Source: Pedobacter borealis DSM 19626
Lineage (GTDB): Bacteria > Bacteroidota > Bacteroidia > Sphingobacteriales > Sphingobacteriaceae
Length of the DNA: 64,000 bases
Direction of reading: 5' to 3'
Assembly (NCBI RefSeq): GCF_000708285.2
Contig: NZ_JAUG01000001.1
Coordinates: 1 to 64,000, forward strand
In this document: in pieces, positions 12,274-43,006 of the stretch
How the letters are laid out: each line of letters starts with the position of its first letter
Numbering within the stretch: the stretch's first letter is position 1
Translations under genes and position numbers: made by a program
The notes under the pieces: model-generated
What the model saw: only the letters and a program-made list of their open reading frames with translations
Database searches by the model: none
Told to the model about the DNA's origin: nothing

Positions 12274-12306
12274 ATGTAGTAAATCGATTTGCTAATTTGG
12301 TTAAAA

Positions 12307-12690: not shown

Positions 12691-12718
12691 CTTGTGTGTG
12701 TTTTGTGTTTTGTTAATC

Positions 12719-13771: not shown

Positions 13772-13780
13772 GTTGGATTG

Positions 13781-14938: not shown

Positions 14939-14946
14939 GTTTATAA

Positions 14947-16916: not shown

Positions 16917-16940
16917 GATGTCTTGTTGTTGTTTTAGAAA

Positions 16941-21688: not shown

Positions 21689-21882
21689 AAATTTGGTTAT
21701 TGTTCATTAAATGATTGGATTTATTGGACATAGAAATACCATGAATACATTTCTAATGTATTTAACTCGCCGGCAATGCCCCACATTGTCGGCTTTGTTT
21801 TTAGAAAAATATTATGGAAAATGGAGCCGCGGTTATGGGCTGTTGGTGTTGTGGTTCTTCTTCATCATGTTTATATATTTGG

Positions 21883-22905: not shown

Positions 22906-23011
22906 AAGAAAGAATATTTGGCTTTATACTATACAAGTAACACAATGAATGCGAACCCCTAAAGGCAGGAGATAAAAAAGTTAAAATAATTTTCAATTGC
23001 CTGGTAATCAG

Positions 23012-26058: not shown

Positions 26059-26838
26059 CTATTTCTTATGTGAAAATAGCCAGGTTAACAATTCTGGCTC
26101 TGCAAAGGCACTGTCCCAGCTATTGTGGTTATCATTTGGATATAGGGTAAATTTCACTTCATCGCCAACAGTTTTCAAACGTTCGGCAATGGCAATCGAA
26201 AAAGCCGGATCAACTACATCATCTTTTGCCCCATGGAAAATCCAAAGCGGTATTTTTTGATATTTTTTAATGTTGTTGGTGTTATCGCCACCACAGATGG
26301 CAATGGCAGCGGCAAATTTGCGGCGTTCTCTTCTTAACAGCTCATAAGTACCCATTGCCCCCATTGATAAACCGCCCACGTACACCTGCTCTTTGTTTAT
26401 ATAAGGTTTATTAAGGAAGTTTTTAACCATGCCTTGTAGCGCATGCATAATTTTGGTTGGTTTGCCACCCTCCACAAAACTGATTCTCCTTTTGCCTTTG
26501 GCATCTTTCTCAAAATTGGCATTTGCCCAAAAGTCGTTTGATGGGCATTGTGGGAAAACAACAATAGCAGGGAAATTTTTGCGTAAATCATTTTTTAAAA
26601 ACAATTTTCCACCATGTACCAGTTGACTGGTATTGTCATTCCCCCTTTCGCCGCTTCCATGGAGGAAAAAGATGATCGGATATTTTTGGTCGGGATTAAA
26701 ATTCTCGGGAAACAGGATTCTGTAATAAATAGAGTCCTTTCCTTTGATATAGCTTCCCTTGTCGTATTTTTTTAAGTCTTGAGCGTTTAAAAAGAGTACA
26801 GAAAAAAGAATGCAGATGGTAAAAAAAATCTTTTTCAT
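26059..26838 (-). CDS. Secreted alpha/beta-hydrolase (esterase, dienelactone-hydrolase/feruloyl-esterase-like)
   Basis: 259 residues. The signal peptide is MKKIFFTICILFSVLFLNAQ. The hydrolase core shows IIFFLHGSGERG (oxyanion region), the nucleophile elbow GGLSMGAMG, the acid in GAKDDVVDP and the final histidine in NDNHNSWDSAF. Such enzymes often remove acyl groups from glycans. It lies 150 bp after the GH3 gene, beyond that gene's terminator, and is probably the outermost member of the polysaccharide locus. Confidence 0.85.
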   Translation of the reverse strand: MKKIFFTICILFSVLFLNAQDLKKYDKGSYIKGKDSIYYRILFPENFNPDQKYPIIFFLHGSGERGNDNTSQLVHGGKLFLKNDLRKNFPAIVVFPQCPSNDFWANANFEKDAKGKRRISFVEGGKPTKIMHALQGMVKNFLNKPYINKEQVYVGGLSMGAMGTYELLRRERRKFAAAIAICGGDNTNNIKKYQKIPLWIFHGAKDDVVDPAFSIAIAERLKTVGDEVKFTLYPNDNHNSWDSAFAEPELLTWLFSHKK

Positions 26839-26927
26839 CCGTTTTATATTATTTTAAAGTTGATGAAGCTATCATGATTTGTTATTTCAAGGTGTGTTTT
26901 GATAAATTATGATGGTTTCATTTAACA

Positions 26928-26968
26928 AAAATAGAAAACCCTGGCTACTTTACAATAGCACAGGGTTC
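26928..26968 (-). terminator. Terminator of the GH3 gene
   Basis: AACCCTG (26937-26943) pairs with CAGGGTT (26961-26967), and an inner GCTA / TAGC pair extends the stem. A T-rich stretch follows on the minus strand. It begins about 20 bp after the bglX stop codon. Confidence 0.75.
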
Positions 26969-26988
26969 ATAACCAAACCTAACTGTCT

Positions 26989-29286
26989 TTATTTCAGTGT
27001 AAAAGATGCTTCTTTTACATCGCGTGAATTTGTGCCAATGAATACTTTAAAATCGCCGGGTTCAGCCACGAATTTTAGATCAGCATTGTAAAACTTAAGA
27101 TCATTTTCGGAAATGTTGAAAGTGACGGTTTTACTTTCTCCGGCTTTTAAATTAATCTTTTGAAAACCTTTTAGCTCTTTTACCGGACGGGTAATGCTTC
27201 CCACAAGATCTTGAATGTATAATTGAACGACCTCTTTACCTTCATATTTACCCGTATTACTTAGCGTAACCGATGCCGTGATCGTTTTCCCTTTGGTTAA
27301 GGTATTTGAACTTAATTTAACATCGCTGTAATTAAACGTGGTATAGCTCAGGCCAAAACCGAAAGGATATAAAGGATCGTTGCTTACATCTAAATAGTTG
27401 GAGCGGAATTTTTCGAACCATTTACCCTCTGCCAACGGTCGACCGGTGTTTTTATGTGCATAATACAAAGGCACCTGACCTACATTTTGAGGGAAAGTTG
27501 CACTCAGTTTACCCGAAGGATTAACATCGCCAAAAAGTACATCAGCAATTGCATTTCCTGCTTCACTACCCGGGAACCAAACATTTAAAATGGAAGCAAT
27601 ATTTTCCTGCTCCCAGTTTAATGCCAACGGACGACCGGTAAACAACACCAGTACCACTGGTTTGCCAGTTTTAGCCAGTGCTTTTAACAGGTTTTTCTGT
27701 GTCTCGGGAATCTGGATATCGGTTACACTACTGCTTTCGCCTGTAAATTCAGAACCTTCACCAATGGTAGTCACAATAACGTCCGATTTTTTAGCAACCT
27801 CTAGCGCTTCCTTGATCATTTCTGCTTCGGTTCGAGGATCGCGTTTGTAAGTAGGATTGTGGATGTTGACATAGCGTTGCTCCATTGCAGAATCTGCTAA
27901 AAAATTAGCGCCGCGTGCGGTTAAAATTTTCGCTTTATCACCCAAAACATTTTTTAAACCTTGAAGTACCGTTATCGATTTATCGAAAAGGGCAGCAACA
28001 CTCCAGGTACCGTACATGTTGGCAGTATTATCTGCCAATGGACCGATTAAGCCAATAGTACCTGATTTTTTTAATGGAAGTATATTATTGTTATTTTTTA
28101 GTAACACGAAGCTTTCAGCAGCAATTTCGCGTGCAACCTGACGGTTAGCTGGACTAAAAACCTCTTTTTCTGCTCTTTCTGCATTACAGAATTTATAAGG
28201 ATCAGCAAATAAACCAAGTTTATATTTTGCCTGAAGCACTAATCGGCATGCCCTGTCTATTTGTGCCATGCCAACTTTTTTCTCTGCCAATGATTTTTTT
28301 AAAGTACCTAAAAAGCCTTCGCCCACCATATCCATATCAATGCCAGCATTTAAAGCCAAGGCAGAAACAGTTTGTAAATCGCCCATGCCGTGGGCAATCA
28401 TTTCAGGAATACCCGTATAATCAGTTACCACGAACCCTTTAAAGCCCCATTGGTTACGTAAAACATCGGTCACTAACCATTTACTTCCGGTTGCAGGGAT
28501 ACCATCAACTTCGTTAAAAGAGGCCATAATACTGGCTGCTCCTGCATCAACAGCGGCTTTATAAGGAGGGAAATATTCATTGTACATGCGCACTTTGCTC
28601 ATATCGGTGGTATTATAATCTCTGCCAGCTTCAGCAGCACCATAAAGCGCATAATGTTTTACGCAGGCTAAAATTTCGTTATTAGCCTGAAGTTTACCTT
28701 GATAACCTTTCACCATGGCTGCGGCAATTTGTGAACCTAAATAAGCATCTTCGCCACTTCCTTCCGAAATGCGGCCCCAACGCGGGTCTCTAGAAATATC
28801 AACCATAGGAGAGAAGGTCCAGTTAATTCCACTTGCACTGGCTTCTATCGCAGCAACCCTTGCCGATTTTTGTACTGTGGCCATATCCCAAACGCAACTC
28901 ATTCCTAATGGAATGGGGAAAACGGTATTATAACCATGGATTACGTCCATTCCAAAAAGCAATGGGATTTTCATGCGGCTGTTTTCTACTGCAATCTTTT
29001 GAACTGCCTTTATCTTATCTACTCCTTTAATGTTAAATAATCCACCAACCTGTCCATCCCTGATTTTTTTAGAAATGTCGCTGCTGTTAGCCTGGCCGGT
29101 GGTGATATCGCCGGAACTTGGCAGGTTCAGCTGACCAATTTTTTCATCAATGGTCATTTTCGCCATGAGGTTGCTGATGAAGGCATTCATCTTTGCATCT
29201 GCTGCCGAAACAGATTTTTTGCTTTGTGCTGATCCATTCAGTACAAGTAGGGTTAAAAAAACAACCAGGATATTCGCTCTCTTCAT
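26989..29286 (-). CDS. bglX: Glycoside hydrolase family 3 beta-glucosidase
   Basis: 765 residues. A signal peptide ends at NGSAQ. The GH3 N-terminal barrel has LLFGMDVIHGYNTVFP, SRDPRWGRISEGSGED and the nucleophile D289 in GFVVTDYTG. The second domain has the likely acid/base glutamate in GEGSEFTGESSS, and a fibronectin-III-like domain closes the protein. It would cleave beta-linked gluco-oligosaccharides in the periplasm. In this locus the natural substrates are sophoro-oligosaccharides released by the two GH144-type enzymes (inference). It is separated from the upstream GH43-like gene by about 150 bp. Confidence 0.95.
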   Translation of the reverse strand: MKRANILVVFLTLLVLNGSAQSKKSVSAADAKMNAFISNLMAKMTIDEKIGQLNLPSSGDITTGQANSSDISKKIRDGQVGGLFNIKGVDKIKAVQKIAVENSRMKIPLLFGMDVIHGYNTVFPIPLGMSCVWDMATVQKSARVAAIEASASGINWTFSPMVDISRDPRWGRISEGSGEDAYLGSQIAAAMVKGYQGKLQANNEILACVKHYALYGAAEAGRDYNTTDMSKVRMYNEYFPPYKAAVDAGAASIMASFNEVDGIPATGSKWLVTDVLRNQWGFKGFVVTDYTGIPEMIAHGMGDLQTVSALALNAGIDMDMVGEGFLGTLKKSLAEKKVGMAQIDRACRLVLQAKYKLGLFADPYKFCNAERAEKEVFSPANRQVAREIAAESFVLLKNNNNILPLKKSGTIGLIGPLADNTANMYGTWSVAALFDKSITVLQGLKNVLGDKAKILTARGANFLADSAMEQRYVNIHNPTYKRDPRTEAEMIKEALEVAKKSDVIVTTIGEGSEFTGESSSVTDIQIPETQKNLLKALAKTGKPVVLVLFTGRPLALNWEQENIASILNVWFPGSEAGNAIADVLFGDVNPSGKLSATFPQNVGQVPLYYAHKNTGRPLAEGKWFEKFRSNYLDVSNDPLYPFGFGLSYTTFNYSDVKLSSNTLTKGKTITASVTLSNTGKYEGKEVVQLYIQDLVGSITRPVKELKGFQKINLKAGESKTVTFNISENDLKFYNADLKFVAEPGDFKVFIGTNSRDVKEASFTLK

Positions 29287-29437
29287 TATATGTGTGTTTT
29301 ATTCTTTTAATTAGCGGACGATCGTTTCCAACGAGTGCCTAAATAGCTTTACGATTTTATCGTGTTTTAACATTAATCGCTAAAAGCGATTGGTTATTTT
29401 CACACCCGTTACAAACGAGCGTGAGCTATGTATTTTA

Positions 29438-31183
29438 TTAATCAACTTTCTTTACCTCGGTTTTTGCCGATACACCATTCTCATTTATTGCTTCAATGGT
29501 AAAATAATAAGCTTTTTGGCTGTCCATTGCTTTGAACCAGTACTCATTAAAATCATGGATCATGATGCAATTGTATAGTTTATCTGGCGCAGTACCGTAG
29601 TAAAGATTATAGGCAAATGCATTATCAACAGGCTGCCATTTGATGTAGGCGCTGCGTTTATCTTTTTCTGTCCTCAATACAATCAGGTTTTTAACCTTTG
29701 TTGGTTTTTCTCCATTTCCATTGCCGAAAACACGTAAGCCACTAATGGCAAATTTTCCGGTTGGCATATGGATGTTTATCATTTTGATGAATCTGGTTTT
29801 TACCGGTTTCTGCAGTTCGATATAATCGTGCGGCACATCGGTTTTGTTCTGGCTTTTATCAACCAGCGTAGTCCATTTTTTACCATCAGTTGATGATAGA
29901 ATCTTATATTGATGGTAAATTCCGATCTGTTTACCAATAAATTCTGCATCCTGATCTGCATAATTAATCTGGATGGCATTAACCGTTGCCAGACTACCCA
30001 GATCGGTTTGGATCCATTCGCCATTGTTTGCGGTTTTTGCACTCCAATAAGTTTTAATGCTTTCATCAACGGCATTGTTGGCATTAAAGCTTCCTAAAGT
30101 TGAAGAAACAGTAACGGGTTTTTTATAGTTAATTAGCATCCAACCTGGACCTGCCGGACCACCTTCCTTTCTTTCGGAAGGTAGATAGAGCGGATAATCT
30201 CCAAAGGCAGTATTGGTCCACATCACATCGTCTTTATCAAAACCGGTTGGCCAGATACCCATTCTGCGCTCCCAGGTGTTTTTTACACAGATAATGCTCG
30301 TAGAAATGTGCCAGTAATTTTTACTGTTATCCTGAAAGGTTGCGCCATGCCCTGCACCACGCGAAAATCCACCACCTTTATAACTTAAAGGATCAGATTG
30401 AGGCGTAAATGGGCTATCGTAAAACAAAGGTTTGGTTCCAACCACCACTCCATCAGAATAACCGCTAAATTCGGTTCCTGGTGCTCCGTATTGAAAGTAA
30501 TATTTGCCATTATGTTTGGTCATCCATGCACCTTCGGCAAAAGGATCAAGAAATGTATTGTCCATATATTCGCCAAAACGCTGCCAGCCATACCGCCAAC
30601 TTTCAAGCAGGTACATTGGTGTGCGGGTACCTTTAGGTTGAAAAGTTTTGCGGTCTAATTCCACACCATACATGGGGTAGTTATTACTGCTTCCGTTATA
30701 CATGTAAAATTTGCCATCGTCATCGGTAAAAAAGGACGGATCCCAGCCACCAATTTCTAAAGAATCAACCAATGGGAACCATTTGTTCCCTTTTGGGTCG
30801 GTACTTCCCCATAAAGTGAAGTTTTTAGTATAGGTACTCCCGAAAACGACCATAGTATCGCCAACGATGCCTACCCCTGGTGCACAGAGTTCATCTTTTG
30901 TTTTGTTCCATGGACGGAGAAATTTTCTTTCATGGAATTTCCAGTTCAGCATATCAGCGCTATGCCAATAACCCCATTGGTTGGTGCTGAAAAGATAGAA
31001 ATCGCCCTTATAATTTACAATCACCGGATCGGCAGTGGCACGGTGTTTCCCCCATTCGGTAAAAGATTCGAATGGTGTATAACCATAATCTACATTGATT
31101 GGATTGCAGTAAGTTTTTTGATTTTGTGCAAATGCCGAAGCAGTGCAGATCATGATTGTTATTGTTATAATCAGTCTTCTCAT
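29438..31183 (-). CDS. GH43-like glycosidase with discoidin (F5/8C) and fibronectin-III domains
   Basis: 581 residues. A signal peptide ends at SAFAQ. The five-bladed propeller part (about 20-340) carries HRATADPVIVNYKGDFYLFST, GWDPSFFTDDDGKFYMY and EGAWMTKHNGKYY, with acidic residues in GH43-like positions. A discoidin-type carbohydrate-binding domain follows (about 345-480, NNAVDESIKTYWSAK, GEWIQTDLG), then a fibronectin-III domain. The stop codon is 150 bp before the GH3 gene and the start is 1 bp from the GH144-type gene upstream. The linkage it cleaves is not predictable; it may remove side groups. Confidence 0.85.
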   Translation of the reverse strand: MRRLIITITIMICTASAFAQNQKTYCNPINVDYGYTPFESFTEWGKHRATADPVIVNYKGDFYLFSTNQWGYWHSADMLNWKFHERKFLRPWNKTKDELCAPGVGIVGDTMVVFGSTYTKNFTLWGSTDPKGNKWFPLVDSLEIGGWDPSFFTDDDGKFYMYNGSSNNYPMYGVELDRKTFQPKGTRTPMYLLESWRYGWQRFGEYMDNTFLDPFAEGAWMTKHNGKYYFQYGAPGTEFSGYSDGVVVGTKPLFYDSPFTPQSDPLSYKGGGFSRGAGHGATFQDNSKNYWHISTSIICVKNTWERRMGIWPTGFDKDDVMWTNTAFGDYPLYLPSERKEGGPAGPGWMLINYKKPVTVSSTLGSFNANNAVDESIKTYWSAKTANNGEWIQTDLGSLATVNAIQINYADQDAEFIGKQIGIYHQYKILSSTDGKKWTTLVDKSQNKTDVPHDYIELQKPVKTRFIKMINIHMPTGKFAISGLRVFGNGNGEKPTKVKNLIVLRTEKDKRSAYIKWQPVDNAFAYNLYYGTAPDKLYNCIMIHDFNEYWFKAMDSQKAYYFTIEAINENGVSAKTEVKKVD

Positions 31184-31184
31184 T

Positions 31185-32552
31185 TTATTTTTTTAAAGTA
31201 GGATGTTCAAAACCTAATTTTTGTAATCCATTTTGAACATTCTTGTTTCCCATAAAAAGCTTCCAAAGTAGACCCGATCTGTAATTTTCGATCATCACGA
31301 CCATTGGGCCTTGGTCGATACCTAAATATCTTTTCGGATACCAATTGTCCTGCTCTGAAAAGGCATCGTAAAAACCATATTTCCCCCAAACTTTATCGCC
31401 CAGATCTTCGTAAAGATGCCTGATTACCCTCATCGATTCTTTTGGAGTGTATGGGATTGATGATATAGCTGCAGTAGGAGAGATTACGCCAAAATCTTCC
31501 TGAGGGTTATGTGCAGCATAACCTTTTACCGAATAACTGGCTGTTAAACCCCAGTTGTTTTCTCCATAACCTTTAAATTTCTTTGGGTTGGCCACACAGT
31601 AATCGTGTATGGCAAGTGTGTGGTTTACGTTATTTTCCCAATAATTTGCATAACGGTCTTTTAAACCTTTCGGATTTAGACCTAAATAGGAGTAATGTGC
31701 CCAAAATAATGGTCCTACAGAATTTTTCTGGCCTTGATAATCAAGTGTAAAAGGATGTCCGTAAAATTTGAAATTAGTTTTAATCTGTCCGTTTCTTGCC
31801 CAACCTTCGTGATAAACTTCAGCAGGAACACCATGCGTAGGGGATGAGGCCGCCATTACATACATTATTAAACATTCGTTATAACCTTTTACGGGAAAGT
31901 TCATTTCCCATTTATACGCTGGCGACCAATGCCAGTACAATACATTTTGGCCATTGCGGTACCAGTCGAAATCGATTCCTTTCCAAAGTTCATCAGCTTT
32001 TTTCGCTAATGCCTTTTCACCATCGGTTCCATTTTTATAATATTCGTTAATACAGATTAAGGCCTGTGCAACAAAAGAAGTTTCTACGAGATCGCCTCCA
32101 TTATCTTTTTGCCCAAAAGGACGTACTTTGGCAGTTTCTCCATTTATCCAATGCGACCATGCACCATGAAAACGATCGGCTTTGGATAGAAAATCCAATA
32201 TTTTGTTTAATCGGTCTAATCCTTCTTTTTTTGTTACATAACCTCTATCAATACCGCTTAAAATGGCCATCAAGCCAAAGCCAGTTGCACCGGTTGCCAC
32301 TGTATTCTTATCATTTTCCGGGTACACATTATCCACATGAAAGCGTTCTCTACCAGCACCTGATGTTGGTTCAGCCCCATCCCAAAAATATTGGAAAGTC
32401 TGTTTTTGCACAAGATCCAGTAATTCAATGTCGGTAAGGTTTTTTTTGATCTTCAGATCAGGATTGTATGCCTGTTTTTCACGCTGTGCACATGATGATA
32501 GCGTAAAAAGGGTAAATGATAATAAAAGGAAGTTTCGGAATATAAATTTCAT
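31185..32552 (-). CDS. Lipoprotein glycoamylase-like (PF10091) enzyme, GH144-type
   Basis: 455 residues. The lipoprotein signal ends LSSC21. The alpha/alpha-barrel domain shows LLDLVQKQTFQYFWDGAEPTSG, ATGATGFGLMAI, ADRFHGAWSHWINGETAK, GGDLVETSFVAQALI, YWHWSPAYKWEMNFPVKGYN, EDFGVISPTAAISSIPYTP and GIDQGPMVVMIENYRSG. These are the hallmarks of the PF10091 family, whose GH144 members are endo-beta-1,2-glucanases. It is adjacent (15 bp) to a second member of the same family, an arrangement suggesting endo and exo roles on one polymer. Confidence 0.85.
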   Translation of the reverse strand: MKFIFRNFLLLSFTLFTLSSCAQREKQAYNPDLKIKKNLTDIELLDLVQKQTFQYFWDGAEPTSGAGRERFHVDNVYPENDKNTVATGATGFGLMAILSGIDRGYVTKKEGLDRLNKILDFLSKADRFHGAWSHWINGETAKVRPFGQKDNGGDLVETSFVAQALICINEYYKNGTDGEKALAKKADELWKGIDFDWYRNGQNVLYWHWSPAYKWEMNFPVKGYNECLIMYVMAASSPTHGVPAEVYHEGWARNGQIKTNFKFYGHPFTLDYQGQKNSVGPLFWAHYSYLGLNPKGLKDRYANYWENNVNHTLAIHDYCVANPKKFKGYGENNWGLTASYSVKGYAAHNPQEDFGVISPTAAISSIPYTPKESMRVIRHLYEDLGDKVWGKYGFYDAFSEQDNWYPKRYLGIDQGPMVVMIENYRSGLLWKLFMGNKNVQNGLQKLGFEHPTLKK

Positions 32553-32567
32553 TGCTGCTGTATAATG

Positions 32568-34232
32568 TTAAAGATTGGGACTGCTAAAACCAAGATTTTT
32601 CATACCTGTTTTAACTTCGGGAGCCGACATAAATAAGTTCCAGATTAATTTGGTTCTATAATTTTCGATCATCACTACTATCGGTCCCTGATCTATGGCC
32701 AAAGTAGAAGAAGCAAACCATTGATCTTTTAGCGAGAAAGCATCGTAAAAACCATAATTTCCCCAGGTTTTGTCGCCCAGTTTATAATAAAAATATTTTA
32801 GCGCCTGCATCGATTCGGTTGGCGTATACGGAAAAGATGATAAGGCTGCGGTAGGGGCAATTACACCAACATCATTGTTCGGCGCGCTTGCAGCATATCC
32901 GTTAGGAATATCACTTGCCGTTAAACCCCAGCAATTTTCACCATAACCATAGTTCCCGAGCGGATTAGCTTTGCAATAATTATAATTAATCTGCGTGTGT
33001 GCTTTAGTCTGTGTTTCGTAATTTGCGTAAGCATCGCTTAAACCTGTTGGATTGATACCCAAGAAAGAATAGTGTGCAAAAAATAATGGGCCACCATTGG
33101 CTGTGCCTAAAGGAAGTTGAACACCATAATAGGTATTCCCATTTTTCATTGCTCCATTTTGTGCCCAACCAATATCATAAACGGTTTTTGGAATGGAGAA
33201 AGTAGGTGAAGCTGCGGCCATCACATAAGTGATCAAACATTCGTTCCAGCCTTTAATGGGCAGGTTCATGTCCCAGTTATAATTAGGGCTCCAATGCCAG
33301 TAAAGTGTATTACTGTTATCTTTTCTGTACCAGGCCCATTCTACGCCGTTATAAATGGTATTAATATCCGCTCGTAACGCAGTTTCTGCTGCATCAGTTC
33401 CATTAAAATATTGACGGGCGGTGATTAGTCCTGCCATTAAAAATGAAGTCTCAACGAGATCGCCACCATTATCTTTGGTACTGAACGGAATTGCTTTTCC
33501 GGTATTGCCATCCAACCAATGTGGATAGGCGCCATGAAAACGATCAGCAGTTTTTAAAAAGGATACCATCTTTTGGATCCTCGTCAATCCATCTGCCCTG
33601 CTGATGAAATTCCTGCTGATACCAGTAACCAAGGCCATGATTCCAAAACCCGATCCACCAGAAGTTACGGTATTACCAGATGTATTTCTTTCCCTTGCAA
33701 GGCCACTGGTTGGGTGTGCAAAATCCCAGAAATATTTGAATGTTTGTTTTTGAACGAGCGTTAAAAGTTCATCGTCGCTGATGCGTGCAAATTTGTCTGC
33801 ATCATCAACAGCAGTGATCAGGTTTACAGCAACCGCTGATTGAAGTTTACCACCGGTTTTTGATGATAAATTGTTATTAACGTTTAAAATATATTTTGTA
33901 ATGGGCTGCAATGCCGTAGCGGTAATTACAACCGTATTATCGTTGTTCTCTAATTTGGAAGTGAATGCTACCGGATTTCCAGAGGCATCGGTAAGGGTAA
34001 CATTGCCACTTATAGAAGTGGAATTGATTGGTGATGAGAATGTTATTTTGATAATTGGGTTATTGTTTAAGCCATAATAGGTAAAGCCACTGTAAGCATC
34101 GTTTACCTTTAAATCGCTAAAAGAAAATGAGCTTGGTGTAACGGGTGGATCAACCGGTGCAGGTGTATCACTTTTTTTGCACGCAAAAAAAACAATTGAT
34201 AAGATTAAAATATAAAAATATTTATTGTTCAT
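32568..34232 (-). CDS. Ig-like domain plus glycoamylase-like (PF10091/GH144-type) lipoprotein
   Basis: About 554 residues from the ATG at 34230-34232, which gives a lipoprotein signal ending FFAC18; an upstream in-frame ATG at 34257-34259 lies inside a hairpin stem and is less likely. A bacterial Ig-like domain (about 35-140, ISGNVTLTDASGNPVAF, LQPITKYILNVN) precedes the catalytic domain, which closely parallels the neighbouring gene: LLTLVQKQTFKYFWDFAHPTSG, GGDLVETSFLMAGLI, YWHWSPNYNWDMNLPIKGWN, DVGVIAPTAALSSFPYTP and AIDQGPIVVMIENYRTK. It is probably surface-exposed. Confidence 0.85.
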   Translation of the reverse strand: MNNKYFYILILSIVFFACKKSDTPAPVDPPVTPSSFSFSDLKVNDAYSGFTYYGLNNNPIIKITFSSPINSTSISGNVTLTDASGNPVAFTSKLENNDNTVVITATALQPITKYILNVNNNLSSKTGGKLQSAVAVNLITAVDDADKFARISDDELLTLVQKQTFKYFWDFAHPTSGLARERNTSGNTVTSGGSGFGIMALVTGISRNFISRADGLTRIQKMVSFLKTADRFHGAYPHWLDGNTGKAIPFSTKDNGGDLVETSFLMAGLITARQYFNGTDAAETALRADINTIYNGVEWAWYRKDNSNTLYWHWSPNYNWDMNLPIKGWNECLITYVMAAASPTFSIPKTVYDIGWAQNGAMKNGNTYYGVQLPLGTANGGPLFFAHYSFLGINPTGLSDAYANYETQTKAHTQINYNYCKANPLGNYGYGENCWGLTASDIPNGYAASAPNNDVGVIAPTAALSSFPYTPTESMQALKYFYYKLGDKTWGNYGFYDAFSLKDQWFASSTLAIDQGPIVVMIENYRTKLIWNLFMSAPEVKTGMKNLGFSSPNL

Positions 34233-34243
34233 AGTAGGAGAGT

Positions 34244-34275
34244 TGAAAAGGGCCACCATTTGGCAGCCCTTTTAA
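34244..34275 (-). terminator. Intercistronic hairpin, possible attenuator
   Basis: AAAAGGGC (34246-34253) pairs with GCCCTTTT (34266-34273), with an inner GCCA / TGGC pair. On the minus strand only four T follow. It lies between the LamG and GH144-type genes and could reduce expression of enzymes relative to SusC/SusD. Confidence 0.55.
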
Positions 34276-34298
34276 TTTTGGCTATCAGAATGGGAAAG

Positions 34299-35123
34299 CT
34301 ATTTTCCTCTTCCTTCGAGTTTTGCTAAAGCACTTATTTCTTCGGGTGCCAAAGCTTTATTAAAAATGCGAACTTCATCTAATTTGCCAGTTAAATAACT
34401 GGCCCAATCTTGCTTGCCTGTTGAGGTTGTTAAACTAGGGGTAGTTTGAAAATGAACGGTTCCGAAAACCATTTTACCTGCATTCTGAAATGTTAAGGCA
34501 CCCAGATTTGCAACCGTTTTTTCGCCCAATTTAGATCCGTTAACATATACTTTAAATGTTGATGTTGCCTGATCATAACTATAAGCAATTTGTGTCCATT
34601 TACCCCATGGCGATGTGATTTTTAAAAAGTTATCACCTCCATTGTTTACTACTCCAGAATAAGTACGTGCTACTAGTTTACCCGTAGTTGCATCGCCTCC
34701 ATTTTCGAAGAACAAGGTTAGGTTACCCCAAAAATCCGATGATTTTGAAACATCTATAAGCCCAACAATACCTTTATCATTTAAAGGCATATTAACCCAG
34801 CAGGTAAGAGTGAAACTTTTTAAGCTTTGAACGGCAGCAGGAGTATTAGATACAACATAACCATTTAAAGCACCCTGTAAGCCTTGTCCTTTTACCCCGG
34901 CAGCAAACGAAGTACCTGTGTTTACGCCCACAGTATTAGAAATACTATCAGTTAATCCTCCATCGAAAGCCCAATAGGCTACCAAACTACTTGGAGCAAT
35001 TTGTTTTGCACTGGTGTAGCCACCGATATTCAAAGCTGGAGCATAGCTTGATGGATCAAATTTTTTCTGACAAGAAGATAAGCCTAAACCCACAACTGCC
35101 AATAATAAATATTTTGTTTTCAT
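34299..35123 (-). CDS. LamG/concanavalin A-like lectin-domain lipoprotein
   Basis: 274 residues. The lipobox is GLSSC18. One LamG-type jelly-roll domain follows (about 45-265): LVAYWAFDGGLTDSISNTVG, SFTLTCWVNMP, GKWTQIAYSYDQATSTFKVY and GKLDEVRIFNKALAPEEI. It is the third gene after SusC and SusD (20 bp from susD), the usual place for a surface glycan-binding protein. No catalytic motif was seen. Confidence 0.88.
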   Translation of the reverse strand: MKTKYLLLAVVGLGLSSCQKKFDPSSYAPALNIGGYTSAKQIAPSSLVAYWAFDGGLTDSISNTVGVNTGTSFAAGVKGQGLQGALNGYVVSNTPAAVQSLKSFTLTCWVNMPLNDKGIVGLIDVSKSSDFWGNLTLFFENGGDATTGKLVARTYSGVVNNGGDNFLKITSPWGKWTQIAYSYDQATSTFKVYVNGSKLGEKTVANLGALTFQNAGKMVFGTVHFQTTPSLTTSTGKQDWASYLTGKLDEVRIFNKALAPEEISALAKLEGRGK

Positions 35124-35143
35124 TTTTAAATCAATTGAAGAGG

Positions 35144-36634
35144 TTAGTATCCAGGATTTTGTGTCAAAACACCTACACTTATGTCAATCTCAGTTGATGG
35201 AATAGGCCAAACTTCGTTTTTACCAGCTTTCCAGCCTTTGGCACCAAATACAGCAGTACCACGACCCTGGCGAATTACATCAAAATAACGGTCAGATTCC
35301 ATCGCTAACTCAAGTTGTCTTTCTTTCCAAATGGCCTGACGCAGTGCATCTTTATCACTTGTTGTAACATCAGGAACAACACCAGCTACACCACCACGTG
35401 CACGTGCACGAACCCTGTTTAATGAAGTTTTAGCTAAAGTTGGATTGTTTAGCTCGTTAGCAGCTTCTGCGTTCATCAAAAGAACATCGGCAAAGCGAAG
35501 TACACGTACGTTTTGGTCAGCTCCCTGTGTATAACCAGAGATAATGTTGGCAAATGGTACGTAAGATTTCTCATTATACATCGGATTATCTGCGCTGTTA
35601 GAGATTGCATCACCTTGGGGGGTAGTTTCTCCTCTATATAGAATTGTTGCGTTCCGACGAACATCGCCTGCTTCGAAAGCTGCATCCAATGCTGGTGTAG
35701 GTACGTTGAAACCCCATCCAAGGTCTGGCGTGTTTGCTCTTGCACCTTGTACCTGGCTGTATTGCGAATTTGATGCATCTTTATTATTCAATAAAAGTGC
35801 GCATTGAATTTCAAATACAGATTCTACGTTGTTTTCATGGTTGGTTCTAAAGCCTTCCTGAAAATTAGGATATAAATCATAACCTAAAGTCATAACGGTA
35901 TTGGTGTAGGATAAAACCTGGTCCCATTTACCTAGATACATGGCAACTTTAGCATGCAAAGCAAGAGCAGCGCCTTTTGTTGCTCTGCCTAAATCGGCAG
36001 CCGGATAGGTTTGTGGCAACACTGCAGCAGCCTCATCTAAGTCTTTTTCGATTGCCGCATAAACCTGGGCTTTAGGTGTTCTCGGAATATTAAACTCAGA
36101 AACATCTTTGGGTACCGTTAAACGTAAAGGTATATCACCAAATGCTCTTACTAACCTGAAATATGAATAAGCGCGAACAAATTTGGCTTCTGCCAGGTAA
36201 CGTGCTTTTAAACTGGCATCCATGTTAATTCCAGGAACGTTATCTAAAACCTGGTTACATAAATTAATGTTTTGGTACTGTGCCTGCCAGAAACCTCCAA
36301 ATTGACCTTCGGTTGAAGATGCCGTGTAATTATCAAAGCTATTTAAATAACTTGCGTCGTTTGCTGTACTTCCCTTCTCGGCGTCATCGCCAGGAATACT
36401 TTCAACAGCTAAAGCAGGGAAGGCAGTGTTGCCCCAACTTCGTAAGTTACCATAAATAGCGATTACAGCTTTTGAAGCGTCATCTGCTGTTTTCCAAAAG
36501 GTAGCTTCTGGTTGTTTTGCCTGTGGATCAACATTTAAAAATTCCTTTTTACATGCAGGCATTACCAAAGTAGTTGCTAAGATTGCAATTAAACCCAGCT
36601 TTTGGATGTATGTATTTTTATGATTTAATTTCAT
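35144..36634 (-). CDS. RagB/SusD-family surface glycan-binding lipoprotein
   Basis: 496 residues. The lipoprotein signal ends VMPAC28. SusD features are KEFLNVDPQ, the repeated-helix region (AEAKFVRAYSYFRLVRAFGDIPL), LNRVRARARGG and the C-terminal WKERQLELAMESDRYFDVIR. It caps the SusC transporter (11 bp upstream) on the outer membrane and captures oligosaccharides. Confidence 0.96.
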   Translation of the reverse strand: MKLNHKNTYIQKLGLIAILATTLVMPACKKEFLNVDPQAKQPEATFWKTADDASKAVIAIYGNLRSWGNTAFPALAVESIPGDDAEKGSTANDASYLNSFDNYTASSTEGQFGGFWQAQYQNINLCNQVLDNVPGINMDASLKARYLAEAKFVRAYSYFRLVRAFGDIPLRLTVPKDVSEFNIPRTPKAQVYAAIEKDLDEAAAVLPQTYPAADLGRATKGAALALHAKVAMYLGKWDQVLSYTNTVMTLGYDLYPNFQEGFRTNHENNVESVFEIQCALLLNNKDASNSQYSQVQGARANTPDLGWGFNVPTPALDAAFEAGDVRRNATILYRGETTPQGDAISNSADNPMYNEKSYVPFANIISGYTQGADQNVRVLRFADVLLMNAEAANELNNPTLAKTSLNRVRARARGGVAGVVPDVTTSDKDALRQAIWKERQLELAMESDRYFDVIRQGRGTAVFGAKGWKAGKNEVWPIPSTEIDISVGVLTQNPGY

Positions 36635-36645
36635 TGTCTTAATTA

Positions 36646-39600
36646 TTAGAATTGAACCTGAACACCTAATCTGTATGTAGCTGCAAGCGGATAAACATTT
36701 GCATCTATACCTCTTGAAATAGGACCACTATTGGCATCATACCCGATTTCAGGAGTAAATCCTTTATATCCGAATAAGTTAACAGCATTTTGTGCGTCAA
36801 GAAATACTCTGATTTTTTTCATCGACCATTTGCCCATTAATGAAGCAGGAAGTGAGTAACCTAATTGTACTGTTCTTAAACGGATATAAGAACCATCTTC
36901 CACATAGAATGAGTTAGGTGCAGCATTTGACGTAGATCCAACATTAGCTGATGGGTAAGTGTTAGATGTACCAGCACCATGCCATCTGTTATCGTAAAAA
37001 TCTTTGCTGAAGTTTTCATTACCGAAACGGTAAGCAATGTTTGCATTGTAAACATCAACATCTGCAACACCTTGAATGTCTAAAGCTAAATCCCATCCTT
37101 TGTAAGCGAAAGTTGTATTGATACCATAACTGTATTTAGGATTTGGATTTCCTAATACTACACGGTCTTTCCCATCAATGGCGCCATCACCATTTTGGTC
37201 TACATAACGGAAGTCGCCCGGTTTTGCGCCAGTTTGCGCTGACGCAGCAACTTCAGCAGGAGTTTGGAAAATTCCTGCAACCTGATAACCAAAGAATGAT
37301 CCTATTGGGTCACCTTGTACGGTACGTGTTGCTAAAGCACCGTTAGCAATGCCTTGTCCACCACTATAAATTGGGTTTGAACCCGTAATTACCGATAATA
37401 CTTTGTTGTTATTAATTCCTATGTTTCCACTAATCGAATAACTTAAACCACTTTTAGTTTGATCTCTCCAGGTGCCCAGAAATTCGACCCCCCGGTTACG
37501 TAAATCAGCTTGGTTACCAATTAAGCTTGCGGTGGCTGTACCAATTGAAGTGAAGATCGGTATGCCAAATATAGCCTGCTCTGTTTTTTTATTATAAAAA
37601 CTTGCTTCAATATTTAATCTGTTTTTTAGGAATGCTGCTTCAAATCCAATGTCAGTACCCGTTGTACGCTCCCAGTTTAAGAATGAAGGAACTAACGACG
37701 CCACGCTGGCACCTGTGTAGGCTACACCATTTAATACCGTAACATAGCCAGCTATTTGAGATACTGTTAATGTTGTTGGGTTTATCGGAACACCCGCATT
37801 ACCTACTTTACCCCATGATGCTTTAAGTTTTAAATTATTAAAAACTTTTTGGTCTTTCATGAAGTCCTCGTTAGAAACAACCCAACCAGCACCAACTGCA
37901 GGGAAATAACCCCAAAGATCACCACCTCCGAAAAATTGAGATGCCGCATCAGCACGCAATGTGGCATTTAATAAATATTTGTCTTTATAAGAATAATTTG
38001 CCCTACCGAAATAAGAAAGGTAAGTAGATAAGCTGCCACCGTCTACTACTTCACGGGTGCTTGCTGTACCTAATGCCAGGTATAAATCTCCTTCACTGCT
38101 GTAAGGAACATTTAATGCACTGGAATTGAGATAATAATTTTTTCTTCTTTGCGCTGTTGTACCTGCTAAAACTGTTAGATTATGATTGCCGAAAGTGTTT
38201 TTATAGGTTAAAGTGTTCTCTAAAATCCAGTTTCTGTTCTCATCCCGGTTGATGGTTAAACGGCTAATGTCATTCAGTTGACCCTGTGTTGCTTTATAAA
38301 CGGGTGTATAGCCTTTTACTTCATTTTGTCCAAAATCACCACCTGCACTGGTTTTAAAAGTAAAGTTTTTAGCAAAGGTTAGCTCTGCATAAACATTTCC
38401 GTTAATTCGGTAGTTTTTAGATTTTTGATTGAAGAAGTCTAAAGTTACCTGAGGATTGAAGTTGTTACCACCTCCTAAACCGAAATCATTGGCATCTCCA
38501 TAAGTCCCATCTGCATAATAAACCGGAACTACTGGACCAGCAGCATATAATTGACGGAAAATAGCTCCGTTGATATCATTTGAATTAATAGACGTTCCGG
38601 AAACCGAATATCCTACTTTCAACGATTTCAGAATTTGGAAATCATTGGCTAATCTGGCTGTATAACGTTTCCAGTTTTGATTTTTAACAATACCGTCCTC
38701 ATTATCGTAACCTAAAGAGAAGTTATAGGTCGATTTTTCAGAACCGCCATTAACAGAGATCTGATGCGTAGTTTGTAATGCATTTCTTAATCCCTGATTG
38801 TACCAGTTGGTACCTTCGCCATAACTGGAAGGATTGGCAAATAATTGAGTGGCTCCGTTTGATGCAGATAATTCATTGATAATTGTTGCATATTCGGTGG
38901 CATTTGCCATTTCGATCGGGTTGGTTACTTTTTTATAGCCAACAGCTCCATTGTAATTAATAACCGGACTATCGTTCTTACCTTTTTTAGTGGTAACTAA
39001 TATAACCCCGTTAGCTGCCCGGATACCATAAATAGATTGAGATGATGCATCTTTCAGAATGCTCATATCAGCAATATCCGCAGGATTTAAGAAACTTATG
39101 TCATCGTACCAAACTCCATCAACCACGTATAATACGCCAAGGCTGCCATAAATAGTTCCTGTACCGCGGATTGTAATTTGTGGTGTCGAACCCGGGGTAC
39201 CTGAATTGGTAATACTAACACCTGCAACCTTACCCTGCAATGCACTTACAGCATTAACCGATGCTTGTTTTGAAATGTCCTCACCTTTTACAGTGGCTAC
39301 AGACCCAGTTACATCAATTTTTCTTTGCGTACCGTAACCCACAACCACAACCTGCTCTAATTGTTGTGTTGATGATGCTAGAGATACATTAATTGTAGTT
39401 TGGTTATTTACAGCCTGTTCTAATGCTGTATAGCCTACAAAGTTAAATACCAATGTGGCACTGGCCGGTGCGCTAAGAGAGTAGTTGCCGTTTACATCCG
39501 TCTGCGTACCATTTTGTGTGCCCTTGATTAAGATAGTTACGCCTGGTAACGGAGTTTTGTCGCCCCCATCTGTTACCCTACCTTTTACAGTAATGTTTTG

Positions 39601-39672
39601 CGCAAATGCTACGTTAATTGCGAGTAAACAAAATACGGCCAGAACAGAAATTCTTGTAAAGATTCTTTTCAT
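36646..39672 (-). CDS. SusC/RagA-family TonB-linked outer-membrane transporter
   Basis: 1008 residues. A signal peptide ends at AFAQ, followed by a carboxypeptidase-regulatory-like domain (ITVKGRVTDGGDKTPLPGVT), the plug with the TonB-box-like EQVVVVGYGTQRKIDVTGSV, IRGTGTIYGSLGVLYVVDG and DMSILKDASSQSIYG, and a beta-barrel. These are standard SusC features. Together with SusD it imports oligosaccharides. It is the first gene of the locus, preceded by a 363-bp region. Confidence 0.97.
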   Translation of the reverse strand: MKRIFTRISVLAVFCLLAINVAFAQNITVKGRVTDGGDKTPLPGVTILIKGTQNGTQTDVNGNYSLSAPASATLVFNFVGYTALEQAVNNQTTINVSLASSTQQLEQVVVVGYGTQRKIDVTGSVATVKGEDISKQASVNAVSALQGKVAGVSITNSGTPGSTPQITIRGTGTIYGSLGVLYVVDGVWYDDISFLNPADIADMSILKDASSQSIYGIRAANGVILVTTKKGKNDSPVINYNGAVGYKKVTNPIEMANATEYATIINELSASNGATQLFANPSSYGEGTNWYNQGLRNALQTTHQISVNGGSEKSTYNFSLGYDNEDGIVKNQNWKRYTARLANDFQILKSLKVGYSVSGTSINSNDINGAIFRQLYAAGPVVPVYYADGTYGDANDFGLGGGNNFNPQVTLDFFNQKSKNYRINGNVYAELTFAKNFTFKTSAGGDFGQNEVKGYTPVYKATQGQLNDISRLTINRDENRNWILENTLTYKNTFGNHNLTVLAGTTAQRRKNYYLNSSALNVPYSSEGDLYLALGTASTREVVDGGSLSTYLSYFGRANYSYKDKYLLNATLRADAASQFFGGGDLWGYFPAVGAGWVVSNEDFMKDQKVFNNLKLKASWGKVGNAGVPINPTTLTVSQIAGYVTVLNGVAYTGASVASLVPSFLNWERTTGTDIGFEAAFLKNRLNIEASFYNKKTEQAIFGIPIFTSIGTATASLIGNQADLRNRGVEFLGTWRDQTKSGLSYSISGNIGINNNKVLSVITGSNPIYSGGQGIANGALATRTVQGDPIGSFFGYQVAGIFQTPAEVAASAQTGAKPGDFRYVDQNGDGAIDGKDRVVLGNPNPKYSYGINTTFAYKGWDLALDIQGVADVDVYNANIAYRFGNENFSKDFYDNRWHGAGTSNTYPSANVGSTSNAAPNSFYVEDGSYIRLRTVQLGYSLPASLMGKWSMKKIRVFLDAQNAVNLFGYKGFTPEIGYDANSGPISRGIDANVYPLAATYRLGVQVQF

Positions 39673-40035
39673 GCTTATTAAAATTTAGTTTAATTGTTAG
39701 TTAAATGTGGGGTTGTTTTTGCTGATGTGCAAGTGTTTTTACCTCTACATTAATACATCATCTGATACTGTGGGGTATCTCAATCAAATAAACCAAATGC
39801 CATTTTAGCCTAAAAATGCAGTTTTTTAGATTTTAACATCACATTAATAAATACACAAGTGTACAAATAACACTAAGTATTTTGTGGGGCTAGAAAGCTT
39901 GCTATGAGAGGTAATGATGTAGTGCCGATTGGGTAAGATAACATGAAAAAGCCCCAAAAATCGTTTTTTGTGCAAACGTTCCCGAGGCTGGTTCGAGCAA
40001 TTTTTGACCGCTCTAATTTGATTCTAGCTGCAAGA
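39673..40035. other. Intergenic region between the locus regulator and SusC
   Basis: It contains the susC promoter and probably the binding site of the regulator encoded next to it, but no site can be named. CAAACGTTCCCGAG near 39973 and the A/T-rich run around 39950-39970 are the only features noticed. No gene and no clear terminator were seen. Confidence 0.4.
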
Positions 40036-42915
40036 TTAAAGTTCCATTAAAAACTCTGTCAGGTTTTTATCGTGCGGTACTTCGAGCTTTTTGCGTAAGC
40101 GATATCTTCTGATTTCTACACCTCTTAAACTAATATTTAGTAGTGATGACATCTCTTTGCTACTCATATTCATCCTGAGGTAGGCGCAGAGTTTCAAATC
40201 ATTCGGAACAAGATCGGGATGCTGTGCCTTTAATTTTTTAAAGAAACTTTCGTGTGCCTCATTAAAACTATTCTCAAATAAATGCCAATCACGCTCATCA
40301 TTCATACCATCATTAATTACTTTCTGGATTTTGCGGGTTTGATCATCTGAGAGTTTTTTCCCATTCTCATCCTTTAATTTGGTGATCTCATCACTCAGCT
40401 TTTGGAGCAGCTCGTTTTTATAAACAAGGGTCATGGCTGAGTTGGCCAGTTCTCTATTTTTCGAGGCGAGTTCTGCCTGTAATTTTTCTGTTTGCAGCTT
40501 GATGATCTGCTTTTCGTTGATCTCTGTTTCCTGCTTCAGGATCTCTTCTTGCTCAGCTTGTAAGCGGTCGCTGATTTTTTGGCTATCCCGCTGTAGTTTT
40601 CTTTCGTAAATTTTCTTACCCAGAATCAACACCACCACAAATAAAACAACATAACACAAAATGGCCCAATTATTTAGATACCATGGACGCAAAATAGTAA
40701 ACGAATAAACGGTTTCCCCGCTTACTGAAGTATCATCGATTTTTGCCCTAACTTTAAAAATATAGTTGCCAGCACTTAAATTGGTAAAATCTTTTTGTGT
40801 GGCATAACTCCAATCAGACCAGGCCTTAGAATATCCTTCTAAATAAAACTGATATTTAACCTTAGCCTGTCGGTAATAGGGCAATGCATAAGAAATGCGG
40901 ATATTGTTACGGCTGTTTTGGATCTCTGTTGCTTCCTCACCATTTCCAGCTTCGCTGATGAGCGAAAATTTATCGGTAATATCTTCTACACGCCTGATCA
41001 GTACGGCAGGCAATTTTTGTTTCTGCAAACTCAGTTGAGCCGTAGGATTGTAGATTACGAACCCATCATCAACGCTGATCAGATAAATGGAATTGCTGAT
41101 GCGGCTAATGTTCTCGTAATATTGAACCATACGGCCATCTAAAATGCTGAATTGATTCGAATCTATTTCTACTTTACCAGGTTCGCTAAAGTTAACCAGT
41201 GCTGTTTTGCCGTGATTAATAAACCAATATTTTTTGCCACCCGCATTAATAATTTTATTAGAGGATTGGAAAGAACCAAGCTCTTTGTTAAGGGCTTCGT
41301 ACTTGGTAAACTTGTCGCTTAGCTCATCATAGGTATAAAACCCTGCATCAGAAGAAAAAACAATTTTGTTCTCTAAATTGAAAATATTGATGTTGTAATT
41401 GCCGGGAAGACCATTTTTTTCATCGAAATACTTGGTGCTGACCACACTGGTATAATTAGCACTTAAGTTCAATTTAAACAGACCTTTATAAGCATGTGCT
41501 ACCCAGATATCTCCTTTGTTGTCTTGTTCAACATATCTCGACGGGGCATCAAAGCCTGCAATTTTTGTAGCAAACTTTAAGCCCGAAGCTGGAGATTCTG
41601 TAAAGAGCGAAAGCCCGGTATAAGTGCCTTGAACAAGGTAATTCGGATTTGAGTTTAATTTTTTAATTGTCCAGCCACCAGATGATCTCGATAACCAATC
41701 AATTTTATCGCCGTTTACTTTAAATGTGCCGCTATTGTGTCCACAGATCAGCTCATTATCAATAATGGTGAGTTCCCATACCTGCCCTTGCGAATTAGCG
41801 ATTAACCGAAAATTAAATGGCAGTAGGTTATCTGGCGACCACTCGCTATAAAATAAACCTTGATTGGTACCGAGATAAATTTTATTGTTAAAGATAATGC
41901 TGGAGTAAACAGTACCAAACTGACCTGTTTTATCAAAATAAAAATATAAAGGAGAGTTAAGTTCTATACGGTCGATCCCATTATCAAGACCTGTCCAAAG
42001 ATTTTGTTCATTATCGGCATATAAACTTAAAACAGTATTGTTCTGTAAACCGCTCGATTTATTGATCCGCTGCACAACTCTTCCATTTTCATCAATAATG
42101 ATCAGGCCATTAAGGATAGTGCCGTAAGCAAAATATTTACCCAATAAACTTACTCCATTGTTAAGTTGGTAGGTTTTAAGGTAGCTATTTGCTGCTGTGT
42201 TTAGCGGCGTAAAATCTTTTCCGTCATAGGTAAATAATCCGTTTTTACTGGTACCGATAATGAGGCCGCTGGTTTTGTAAGGAAGGATAGAAAGAATTCC
42301 TTCTTTGCCAAGTTTTTCACTATTTGGGATGTGGACCAATTTGTTGCCAATGAGCTCGAACAAACCTTTTTCCAGTACTTCAATTAAGTGCCTTTTGTTC
42401 ACCTTATGAAGAAACAGAAAGGAAGATGGCGATTTTACAACCTCGATTTTGTTGTTTTTATAGATGAAAATTTTCGAAAAGGATTGAAAGATTACCCTAT
42501 CCTGGTCTACATAGATTTTCCAAACTTCATCATTGATTTTTATTCCTTTTGGCAAAAGATTGGTAAGTGAACTATAGGTTAACTTGTTGCTTTTAATCGA
42601 CCAAAAGCCAAATTCACCAAAGCTACCAGTATAAATTCTTCCTTTGTTATCTGTAGCCACCGATCTAACAATTTGCCGATTTGGCATCTGATATTTCTGC
42701 CAGTAGCGGCCATCGAAAGTTAAAAGTCCTTCAGCATTGCCAAAGTACATCACACCATTTTTATCTTTTGCTACACTCCAGTTCTGGTTTCCTGACGAAT
42801 AAACCGATTTTGGATAATTTTCTATATATGGAACGCCTATGCTTTTAATTTCTGATGCATGGGCATTTATTGCGAAGCAGGATAATAATAATAGGAGCCG
42901 GAAATAGTTTAGCAT
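40036..42915 (-). CDS. Membrane-spanning beta-propeller/Y_Y_Y sensor with C-terminal LuxR-type HTH
   Basis: About 959 residues from the ATG at 42913-42915, which opens a good signal peptide (MLNYFRLLLLLSCFAINAHA); another ATG lies 24 bp upstream. A long periplasmic region of two-component-regulator propeller repeats is followed by a Y_Y_Y domain (YQFYLEGYSKAWSDWS), one membrane helix (ILCYVVLFVVVLILG), a coiled coil rich in E, K and Q, and a LuxR-type helix-turn-helix (LRMNMSSKEMSSLLNISLRG). There is no histidine kinase or receiver domain, so the glycan signal probably reaches DNA directly. It is the likely regulator of the adjacent SusC-led locus. Confidence 0.88.
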   Translation of the reverse strand: MLNYFRLLLLLSCFAINAHASEIKSIGVPYIENYPKSVYSSGNQNWSVAKDKNGVMYFGNAEGLLTFDGRYWQKYQMPNRQIVRSVATDNKGRIYTGSFGEFGFWSIKSNKLTYSSLTNLLPKGIKINDEVWKIYVDQDRVIFQSFSKIFIYKNNKIEVVKSPSSFLFLHKVNKRHLIEVLEKGLFELIGNKLVHIPNSEKLGKEGILSILPYKTSGLIIGTSKNGLFTYDGKDFTPLNTAANSYLKTYQLNNGVSLLGKYFAYGTILNGLIIIDENGRVVQRINKSSGLQNNTVLSLYADNEQNLWTGLDNGIDRIELNSPLYFYFDKTGQFGTVYSSIIFNNKIYLGTNQGLFYSEWSPDNLLPFNFRLIANSQGQVWELTIIDNELICGHNSGTFKVNGDKIDWLSRSSGGWTIKKLNSNPNYLVQGTYTGLSLFTESPASGLKFATKIAGFDAPSRYVEQDNKGDIWVAHAYKGLFKLNLSANYTSVVSTKYFDEKNGLPGNYNINIFNLENKIVFSSDAGFYTYDELSDKFTKYEALNKELGSFQSSNKIINAGGKKYWFINHGKTALVNFSEPGKVEIDSNQFSILDGRMVQYYENISRISNSIYLISVDDGFVIYNPTAQLSLQKQKLPAVLIRRVEDITDKFSLISEAGNGEEATEIQNSRNNIRISYALPYYRQAKVKYQFYLEGYSKAWSDWSYATQKDFTNLSAGNYIFKVRAKIDDTSVSGETVYSFTILRPWYLNNWAILCYVVLFVVVLILGKKIYERKLQRDSQKISDRLQAEQEEILKQETEINEKQIIKLQTEKLQAELASKNRELANSAMTLVYKNELLQKLSDEITKLKDENGKKLSDDQTRKIQKVINDGMNDERDWHLFENSFNEAHESFFKKLKAQHPDLVPNDLKLCAYLRMNMSSKEMSSLLNISLRGVEIRRYRLRKKLEVPHDKNLTEFLMEL

Positions 42916-43006
42916 AAAATGGTTAATAGGTAAAGCCATTAATACACAAAGTAAATGAAAAATTGTTTAATACGGTGGTTAATAGATAATGATTGAGATC
43001 TGTTGG

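Follow-up and report, generated by a model that had tools for sequence, protein, structure and literature searches.

A Pedobacter locus with two GH144-type proteins and a GH43 partner, probably for the use of a foreign, substituted beta-1,2-glucan

Loci carrying genes of glycoside hydrolase family 144 (GH144) are reported to be abundant in Bacteroidota, and a sulfated polymer variant has been proposed for the marine ones (PMC6499787; this and the other papers given by PMC number are cited from partial text). GH144 genes are said to be present in all Maribacter and Zobellia examined, and the cluster of Maribacter dokdonensis combines two GH144 genes, a GH3 gene, SusC/SusD and a sulfatase (PMC8072126). 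Fosmids carrying SusC/SusD, GH3 and GH144 have also been described (PMC6550366), and the SGL cluster of Bacteroides thetaiotaomicron includes a beta-glucosidase (PMC8861115). The locus considered here lies in the first 64,000 nucleotides of contig NZ_JAUG01000001.1 of Pedobacter borealis DSM 19626 (hereafter, the window, meaning the whole stretch analysed), from an assembly of 5.5 Mb in 216 contigs. Like the loci of PMC8072126 and PMC6499787, it brings together two GH144-type genes, a GH3 gene and SusC/SusD, and it differs from what the partial text of those papers describes in having an alpha/beta-hydrolase gene and a GH43 gene and no sulfatase gene.

The explanation that we favour is based on the gene content and layout, the catalytic residues of the GH144-type proteins (SGL_A and SGL_B), the fold and triad of the GH43 protein (hereafter, GH43L), and the recurrent gene order GH144, GH43, GH3 (Table 1). 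The susC and susD genes adjoin genes for carbohydrate-active enzymes, as in a polysaccharide utilisation locus, and we consider it probable that this one allows Pedobacter to use a foreign, substituted beta-1,2-glucan. The sequence comparisons give beta-1,2-glucan good support as the target, without proving it, and decoration of the glucan is plausible. An earlier note, made from the DNA letters alone, had listed SusC/SusD, a LamG protein, two GH144-type proteins, a GH43-like protein with a discoidin domain, a GH3 enzyme and an esterase; we recovered all of them at the coordinates given and on the minus strand, with family matches that all exceed the Pfam cut-offs. The rationale of that note omitted the 967-residue regulator encoded inside the span. 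Its proposal of beta-1,2-glucan as the target gains support from the residues that both GH144-type proteins share with CpSGL of Chitinophaga pinensis (PDB 5gzh, 5gzk) and from the nearness of the GH3 protein to PDB 5xxl. Intergenic gaps from SusC to the esterase measure 11, 20, 39, 15, 1, 151 and 150 bases, and these genes likely form one transcript; 363 bases separate the regulator gene from that of SusC.

Table 1. Features of the GH144 locus, with positions in the window and the family matches of each product.
Feature	Position	Strand	Content or family matches
Whole locus	26059-42939	minus	eight genes in a row and an upstream regulator gene, same strand
Regulator, 967 aa	40036..42939	minus	Reg_prop repeat, Y_Y_Y domain
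SusC-type TonB-dependent transporter, 1008 aa	36646..39672	minus	TIGR04056 844.6 bits; Plug, CarbopepD_reg_2
SusD-type lipoprotein, 496 aa	35144..36634	minus	PF07980 (SusD_RagB) 117 bits; PF14322 100 bits
LamG-domain lipoprotein, 274 aa	34299..35123	minus	PF13385 (Laminin_G_3) 59 bits
SGL_B, GH144-type lipoprotein with N-terminal Ig-like domain	32568..34259	minus	PF10091 246.5 bits; Big_5 33.7 bits
SGL_A, GH144-type lipoprotein	31185..32552	minus	PF10091 279 bits
GH43L, GH43 catalytic and F5/8-type domains	29438..31183	minus	GH43 62 bits; F5_F8_type_C 67 bits
GH3 beta-glucosidase, BglX type	26989..29286	minus	GH3 N/C/Fn3 243/202/93 bits; NF011678 961.7 bits
Alpha/beta-hydrolase, predicted esterase	26059..26838	minus	PF02230 (Abhydrolase_2) 47 bits

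Two GH144-type proteins and a predicted surface module

A profile search of the whole assembly at E 0.001 matched PF10091 to SGL_A and SGL_B and found no third PF10091 gene. Compared to CpSGL (5gzh), SGL_A scored 682 bits with 273 of 412 aligned residues identical (66%), and SGL_B, which differs from CpSGL by its additional Ig-like domain, scored 501 bits with 232 of 404 (57%). The solved chain nearest to SGL_B by score was 4gl3, deposited only as a putative glucoamylase. Seven CpSGL residues (D135, D139, E142, E211, F268, Y330, D400) are all kept in both proteins, which therefore show the relatedness to CpSGL and the residues expected of members of GH144 (clan GH-S). Among these, E211, F268 and Y330 are residues of the clan, CpSGL mutants at D135, D139 and E142 lose activity, and the D400 mutant is said to retain sufficient activity (PMC12102758).

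These comparisons were extended to 142 GH144 loci, comprising the window, loci among the PF10091 matches listed in a family sample, and four loci found through GH43. SusC/SusD occur in the run of 129, and these form the comparison set, which includes the window and the four GH43-found loci; it represents one family, with some genomes present more than once, and relatives enter the Fisher values as independent observations. Across 198 GH144-type proteins from the 129 loci, six of the seven residue columns were invariant and the seventh was kept in 197 proteins. In the tree, the first gene of every locus with two GH144 genes (69/69) grouped with SGL_B in a clade with no other members (support 0.998), indicating that SGL_A and SGL_B are not recent duplicates and that the Ig-bearing SGL_B belongs to a separate clade.

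The lipobox of SGL_B is followed by KKSD, and translation of the protein probably begins a few codons further in, at an in-frame ATG (MNNKYF...). Tails of the first GH144 proteins often consist of KK and polar residues and resemble those of the SusD and LamG proteins in the same loci. A simple home-made rule, which depends on guessed start codons, detected a lipobox in 57 of 69 first GH144 proteins and in 31 of 69 second ones (mostly with a different tail); the counts were 58/66 for LamG, 5/45 for GH43L, 12/107 for GH3 and 0/61 for the esterase. The LamG gene was present in 55 of the 69 loci with two GH144 genes, compared to 11 of the 60 with one (Fisher 1.4e-12). From the clade, the lipoprotein tails and the association of LamG with the GH144 pair, we infer a surface module of LamG and SGL_B beside a periplasmic SGL_A. 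SGL_B would then be a surface endo-beta-1,2-glucanase and SGL_A a periplasmic one, both probably, and the LamG lipoprotein a probable surface glycan-binding protein.

Some relatives carry larger GH144 inventories. Eight loci (L075, L082, L084, L085, L092, L093, L094, L098) have at least three GH144-type genes each, one of them about 47–51% identical to SGL_B. A distant PF10091-type protein, 28% identical to SGL_A, is encoded in L084 (12570-13940) and L109 (12516-13904), loci that already have several GH144 genes; the PF10091 match was confirmed for L084.

GH43L and its genomic settings

The GH43 family is defined by a five-bladed propeller catalytic fold. A single-sequence search found solved relatives for the F5/8 part of GH43L and none for its catalytic part, and a 43-sequence profile matched the solved GH43 chain 4qqs (E 5e-18). 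The predicted structure (pLDDT 90.4) matched chain 4qqs_B with a Z score of 28.9 and an rmsd of 2.5 Å over 285 residues, consistent with a GH43 propeller, and the top Foldseek match was BT_3662 (5msx). D52, D148 and E217 are in register with the GH43 chains and invariant in the 43-row alignment and in four groups; they lie in the ADP, WDP and EG motifs, which hold the catalytic residues. GH43L is therefore assigned to GH43 by its propeller fold and its Asp, Asp, Glu triad, both of which it shares with the solved enzymes 4qqs, BoGH43A/B and BT_3662. Its identity to solved GH43 chains is 15–24% across 50 structural-match rows, which do not include BT_3662.

A GH43L relative occurs in 91 of 201 family genomes and a PF10091 gene in 151. 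The search returned 102 GH43L rows, two of which (a 29% match and an 84-residue fragment of 71% identity beside a PF10091 gene) were left out before counting; 59 rows reach at least 58% identity, the fragment excluded. The nearest relatives (96% identity) are in P. psychrodurus, Pedobacter sp. Bi126 and P. ginsenosidimutans. At 65% identity or above there are 46 orthologues, and a listed PF10091 gene is no more than 10 kb away for 45 of them and no more than 1 kb away for 44, whereas of the 16 PF04616 match rows in the P. borealis genome only GH43L is on the contig with both PF10091 genes, and on these grounds we rejected a chance cluster of common genes. Strict binding of GH43L to GH144 is also ruled out, since all 13 orthologues at 58–62% identity have no listed PF10091 gene nearby. 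Six of these 13 loci (L122-L127) had no GH144 gene within 17–18 kb when read, nor did the locus (L139) of orthologue G116 at 69% identity. From 80 loci found through GH43L, 56 have GH144 in the flank, 11 lack it despite full 10-kb flanks, and 13 lack it in flanks cut by contig ends. A second group, the B-type GH43 proteins (39–45% identity), numbers 41, of which at least 25 have a listed PF10091 gene nearby, and four further B-type loci (L130, L131, L132, L138) proved on reading to adjoin a GH144 gene. Because loci found through GH144 are among its entries, the GH43 tree gives biased linkage counts, which we set aside.

The same catalytic core appears in differing settings. In L128 the neighbour of a B-type gene encodes a protein that carries an alpha-L-arabinofuranosidase C-terminal domain, in L140 the neighbours are GH31, a xylulokinase-like gene and a further GH43, and in L133 GH95-, GH3- and GH2-type genes lie nearby. 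In some loci without GH144, from metagenome-assembled genomes (MAGs) labelled Chitinophagaceae or Sphingobacteriales, members of the GH43L group variously accompany a GDSL esterase, GH3, GH97 and GH30; the best NCBIfam match of the GH30 is the endo-1,6-beta-glucanase BT3312, at 388 bits and below the cut-off of 700. The unchanged core suggests that one sugar is cleaved in all settings, as a side group rather than as part of the beta-1,2 backbone, and we accordingly regard removal of a side group by GH43L as more likely than backbone cleavage. No residue signature of the GH144-linked GH43 groups was found beyond the control (10 versus 9 positions), which agrees with the side-group reading and proves nothing. 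GH43L is probably a periplasmic enzyme that strips a side group.

The best-surviving alternative, which we regard as possible but distinctly less likely than a substituted polymer, is a plain beta-1,2-glucan locus in which GH43L acts on the glucan itself and meets no foreign side group, for example as an exo-acting enzyme or by cutting a beta-1,6 or alpha-1,6 glucosyl link. It would suit the position of 70 of 74 GH43 genes between GH144 and GH3, and the pairing of GH43L with the BT3312-like GH30 in some loci. The occurrence of the same core beside the arabinofuranosidase-type gene, beside GH31 and the xylulokinase-like gene, or alone argues against it, as do the missing residue signature and the loci of the comparison set that lack GH43 altogether (58/129).

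Four of the MAG loci (L072, L074, L077, L081) have GH43L with a GDSL esterase and GH3 and no GH144 in the flank, and they adjoin a recurrent run of genes for a ROK kinase, a SIS domain, glucosamine-6-phosphate-isomerase-like, methionine-synthase-like and beta-lactamase-fold proteins, and a GMC oxidoreductase.

Accessory genes in related loci

The earlier note held that the GH43-like enzyme and the esterase made the locus less usual, and the survey does not support this: GH43 of either group occurs in 71 of the 129 loci (67 of 125 without the four found through GH43) and an esterase like that of the window in 61. GH3 is present in 104. Other accessory genes are rarer (GDSL 16, sulfatase 9, metallophosphoesterase 7, DUF4886 5, GH97 1), with the caveat that the naming panel was built from few loci and that 43 of the 129 runs contain open reading frames it leaves unnamed. 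All nine sulfatases have the C-x-P-S-R motif. The space between the last GH144 gene and GH3 (n = 104) holds GH43, by itself or in company, in 67 loci, GDSL alone in five and metallophosphoesterase alone in four, and is empty in 28.

Relatives also differ in this space at a single chromosomal address, marked as ancestral by a shared epimerase or YebC gene within 2 kb of the run. In 39 such loci (the window would be the fortieth), the space contains GH43L in 19, GH43B in three, metallophosphoesterase in three and GDSL in one, is empty in nine, and has no GH3 to bound it in four; five of the 19 GH43L loci also have a small unnamed frame and one a GDSL gene. The accessory enzyme thus varies among relatives at the same place.

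DUF4886 (0/5), GH97 (0/1) and the esterase (0/61) rule out one swap slot common to every accessory gene, since none of them lies between the last GH144 gene and GH3, the position of 12 of 16 GDSL, eight of nine sulfatase and four of seven metallophosphoesterase genes. Mutual exclusion of GH43 and metallophosphoesterase is likewise ruled out, because three of the seven phosphoesterase loci also carry GH43. Esterases showed no enrichment with GH43 (33/71 versus 28/58 for the type in the window; 7/71 versus 9/58 for GDSL), and sulfatases leaned towards GH43 loci (8/71 versus 1/58; p 0.04, uncorrected for relatedness and multiple tests). Searches with the metallophosphoesterase gave neither a solved relative up to E 0.1 nor an NCBIfam match, which leaves its identification as a known glycerophosphodiesterase unsupported.

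A more specific reading is that SusC/SusD, GH144 and GH3 form a fixed chassis, that the accessory genes (GH43, GDSL esterase, metallophosphoesterase, sulfatase) are exchanged, mostly before GH3, to match how the osmoregulated or cyclic glucans of neighbouring bacteria are decorated, and that GH43L is a new activity removing a glycosyl group undescribed on natural beta-1,2-glucans. We hold this only tentatively, and rejection of the single slot lowered its odds a little. In the literature searched, represented in part and with most subscription papers and supplements outside its scope, we found no report of GH43 as a regular GH144 partner; nor, with most subscription papers again outside, did we find GH144 together with a phosphoesterase. 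This is no proof that the GH43–GH144 link is unreported. The locus is of a known and common kind, and its uncharacterised, conserved GH43 partner hints at side groups undescribed on the natural polymer.

Elsewhere in the window, the genes at 10034-18710 fit a set for 3-keto-glycoside breakdown: 3keto-disac_hyd, two Gfo/Idh/MocA oxidoreductases, xylose-isomerase-like TIM barrels, and a GMC oxidoreductase with gluconate 2-dehydrogenase subunit 3. A GMC gene lies in the flanks of 13 of the 31 loci L041-L071 and of six of 128 family loci. A TonB-dependent receptor, a FecR-type anti-sigma factor and a sigma-70-type factor make up a separate unit (18758-23572), which lies between this set and the epimerase.

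Target polymer and proposed pathway

The natural polymer is most likely an osmoregulated periplasmic or cyclic glucan of Proteobacteria. Such glucans are reported with succinyl, phosphoglycerol and phosphoethanolamine groups, and with beta-1,6 branching or an alpha-1,6 linkage (PMC11842490, PMC10514313). Ester-, phosphoester- and glycoside-cleaving accessory enzymes would suit these substituents and sulfatases would not. Since OpgG (PF04349) had no match in a search of the genome that detected the E. coli control, and no further PF10091 gene was found, the polymer is probably foreign.

Several results weigh against a decorated glucan of this kind and against the division of labour proposed for its breakdown. 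GH43 is missing from 58 of the 129 loci, the GH144–GH3 space is empty in 28 of 104, and 25 of 129 have neither GH43 nor any accessory family counted, which together imply that handling of decorations is not essential. No phosphoesterase gene is in the run of the window itself, sulfatases (9/129) are a poor fit to the reported substituents, and we know of no osmoregulated-glucan substituent that obviously calls for GH43. The lipobox rule recovers only 67 of 131 SusD proteins, which makes it a weak predictor for the split between inside and outside. Finally, a GH144 locus elsewhere pairs with a beta-1,2-galactosidase (PMC11739564).

This last enzyme, Bxy_22780 of Bacteroides xylanisolvens, would also favour a different beta-1,2-linked polymer, such as a galactan or mixed glycan, with a shifted GH144 specificity; we think this improbable, because SGL_A and SGL_B both keep every tested CpSGL residue and are accompanied by a GH3 of BglX type, with no GH35 or GH2 in the operon. 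Recycling of the cell's own beta-1,2-glucan, although conceivable for any periplasmic glucan, is very unlikely given the missing OpgG, the lack of a third PF10091 gene (a domain also present in cyclic glucan synthases, whose glycosyltransferase part was not searched) and the SusC/SusD and surface-type lipoproteins that indicate uptake.

GH3 passes the cut-off of the BglX equivalog NF011678 (961.7 bits, cut-off 666), and its nearest solved chains are 3u48 (1180 bits), 9urf (1118) and 5xxl (1110), the last of which we take to be BT_3567 of B. thetaiotaomicron. This places it in the same group as the GH3 of the B. thetaiotaomicron SGL cluster, known here from partial text, in a comparison that covers GH3 only, and its probable role is the final step from oligosaccharide to glucose. 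The alpha/beta-hydrolase, whose nearest solved chain is the esterase 3doh (E 6e-37), is a probable esterase that takes off an acyl group. The C-terminal part of the regulator weakly matches NF053779 (BT3442 family; 35 bits, cut-off 940), and a gene of its type is in the same run in at least 59 of the 129 loci, a lower bound as stretches were cut; it is probably the sensor and activator of the operon.

In the pathway that we propose, SGL_B would cut the chain with help from LamG, its Ig-like domain keeping it clear of the outer surface, and SusC/SusD, from what is known of their families, would take up the fragments. Once in the periplasm, these would lose their substituents to the esterase and GH43L, SGL_A would trim the chains and GH3, by its family function, would free glucose, while the regulator may sense an imported fragment.

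GH144 loci are reported as abundant in Bacteroidota (PMC6499787). The conserved GH43 partner and the exchangeable accessory genes offer concrete handles on what natural beta-1,2-glucans, as distinct from the laboratory polymer, carry, and the same genes may help to identify consumers of the glucans that serve other bacteria in symbiosis, infection and osmoregulation.

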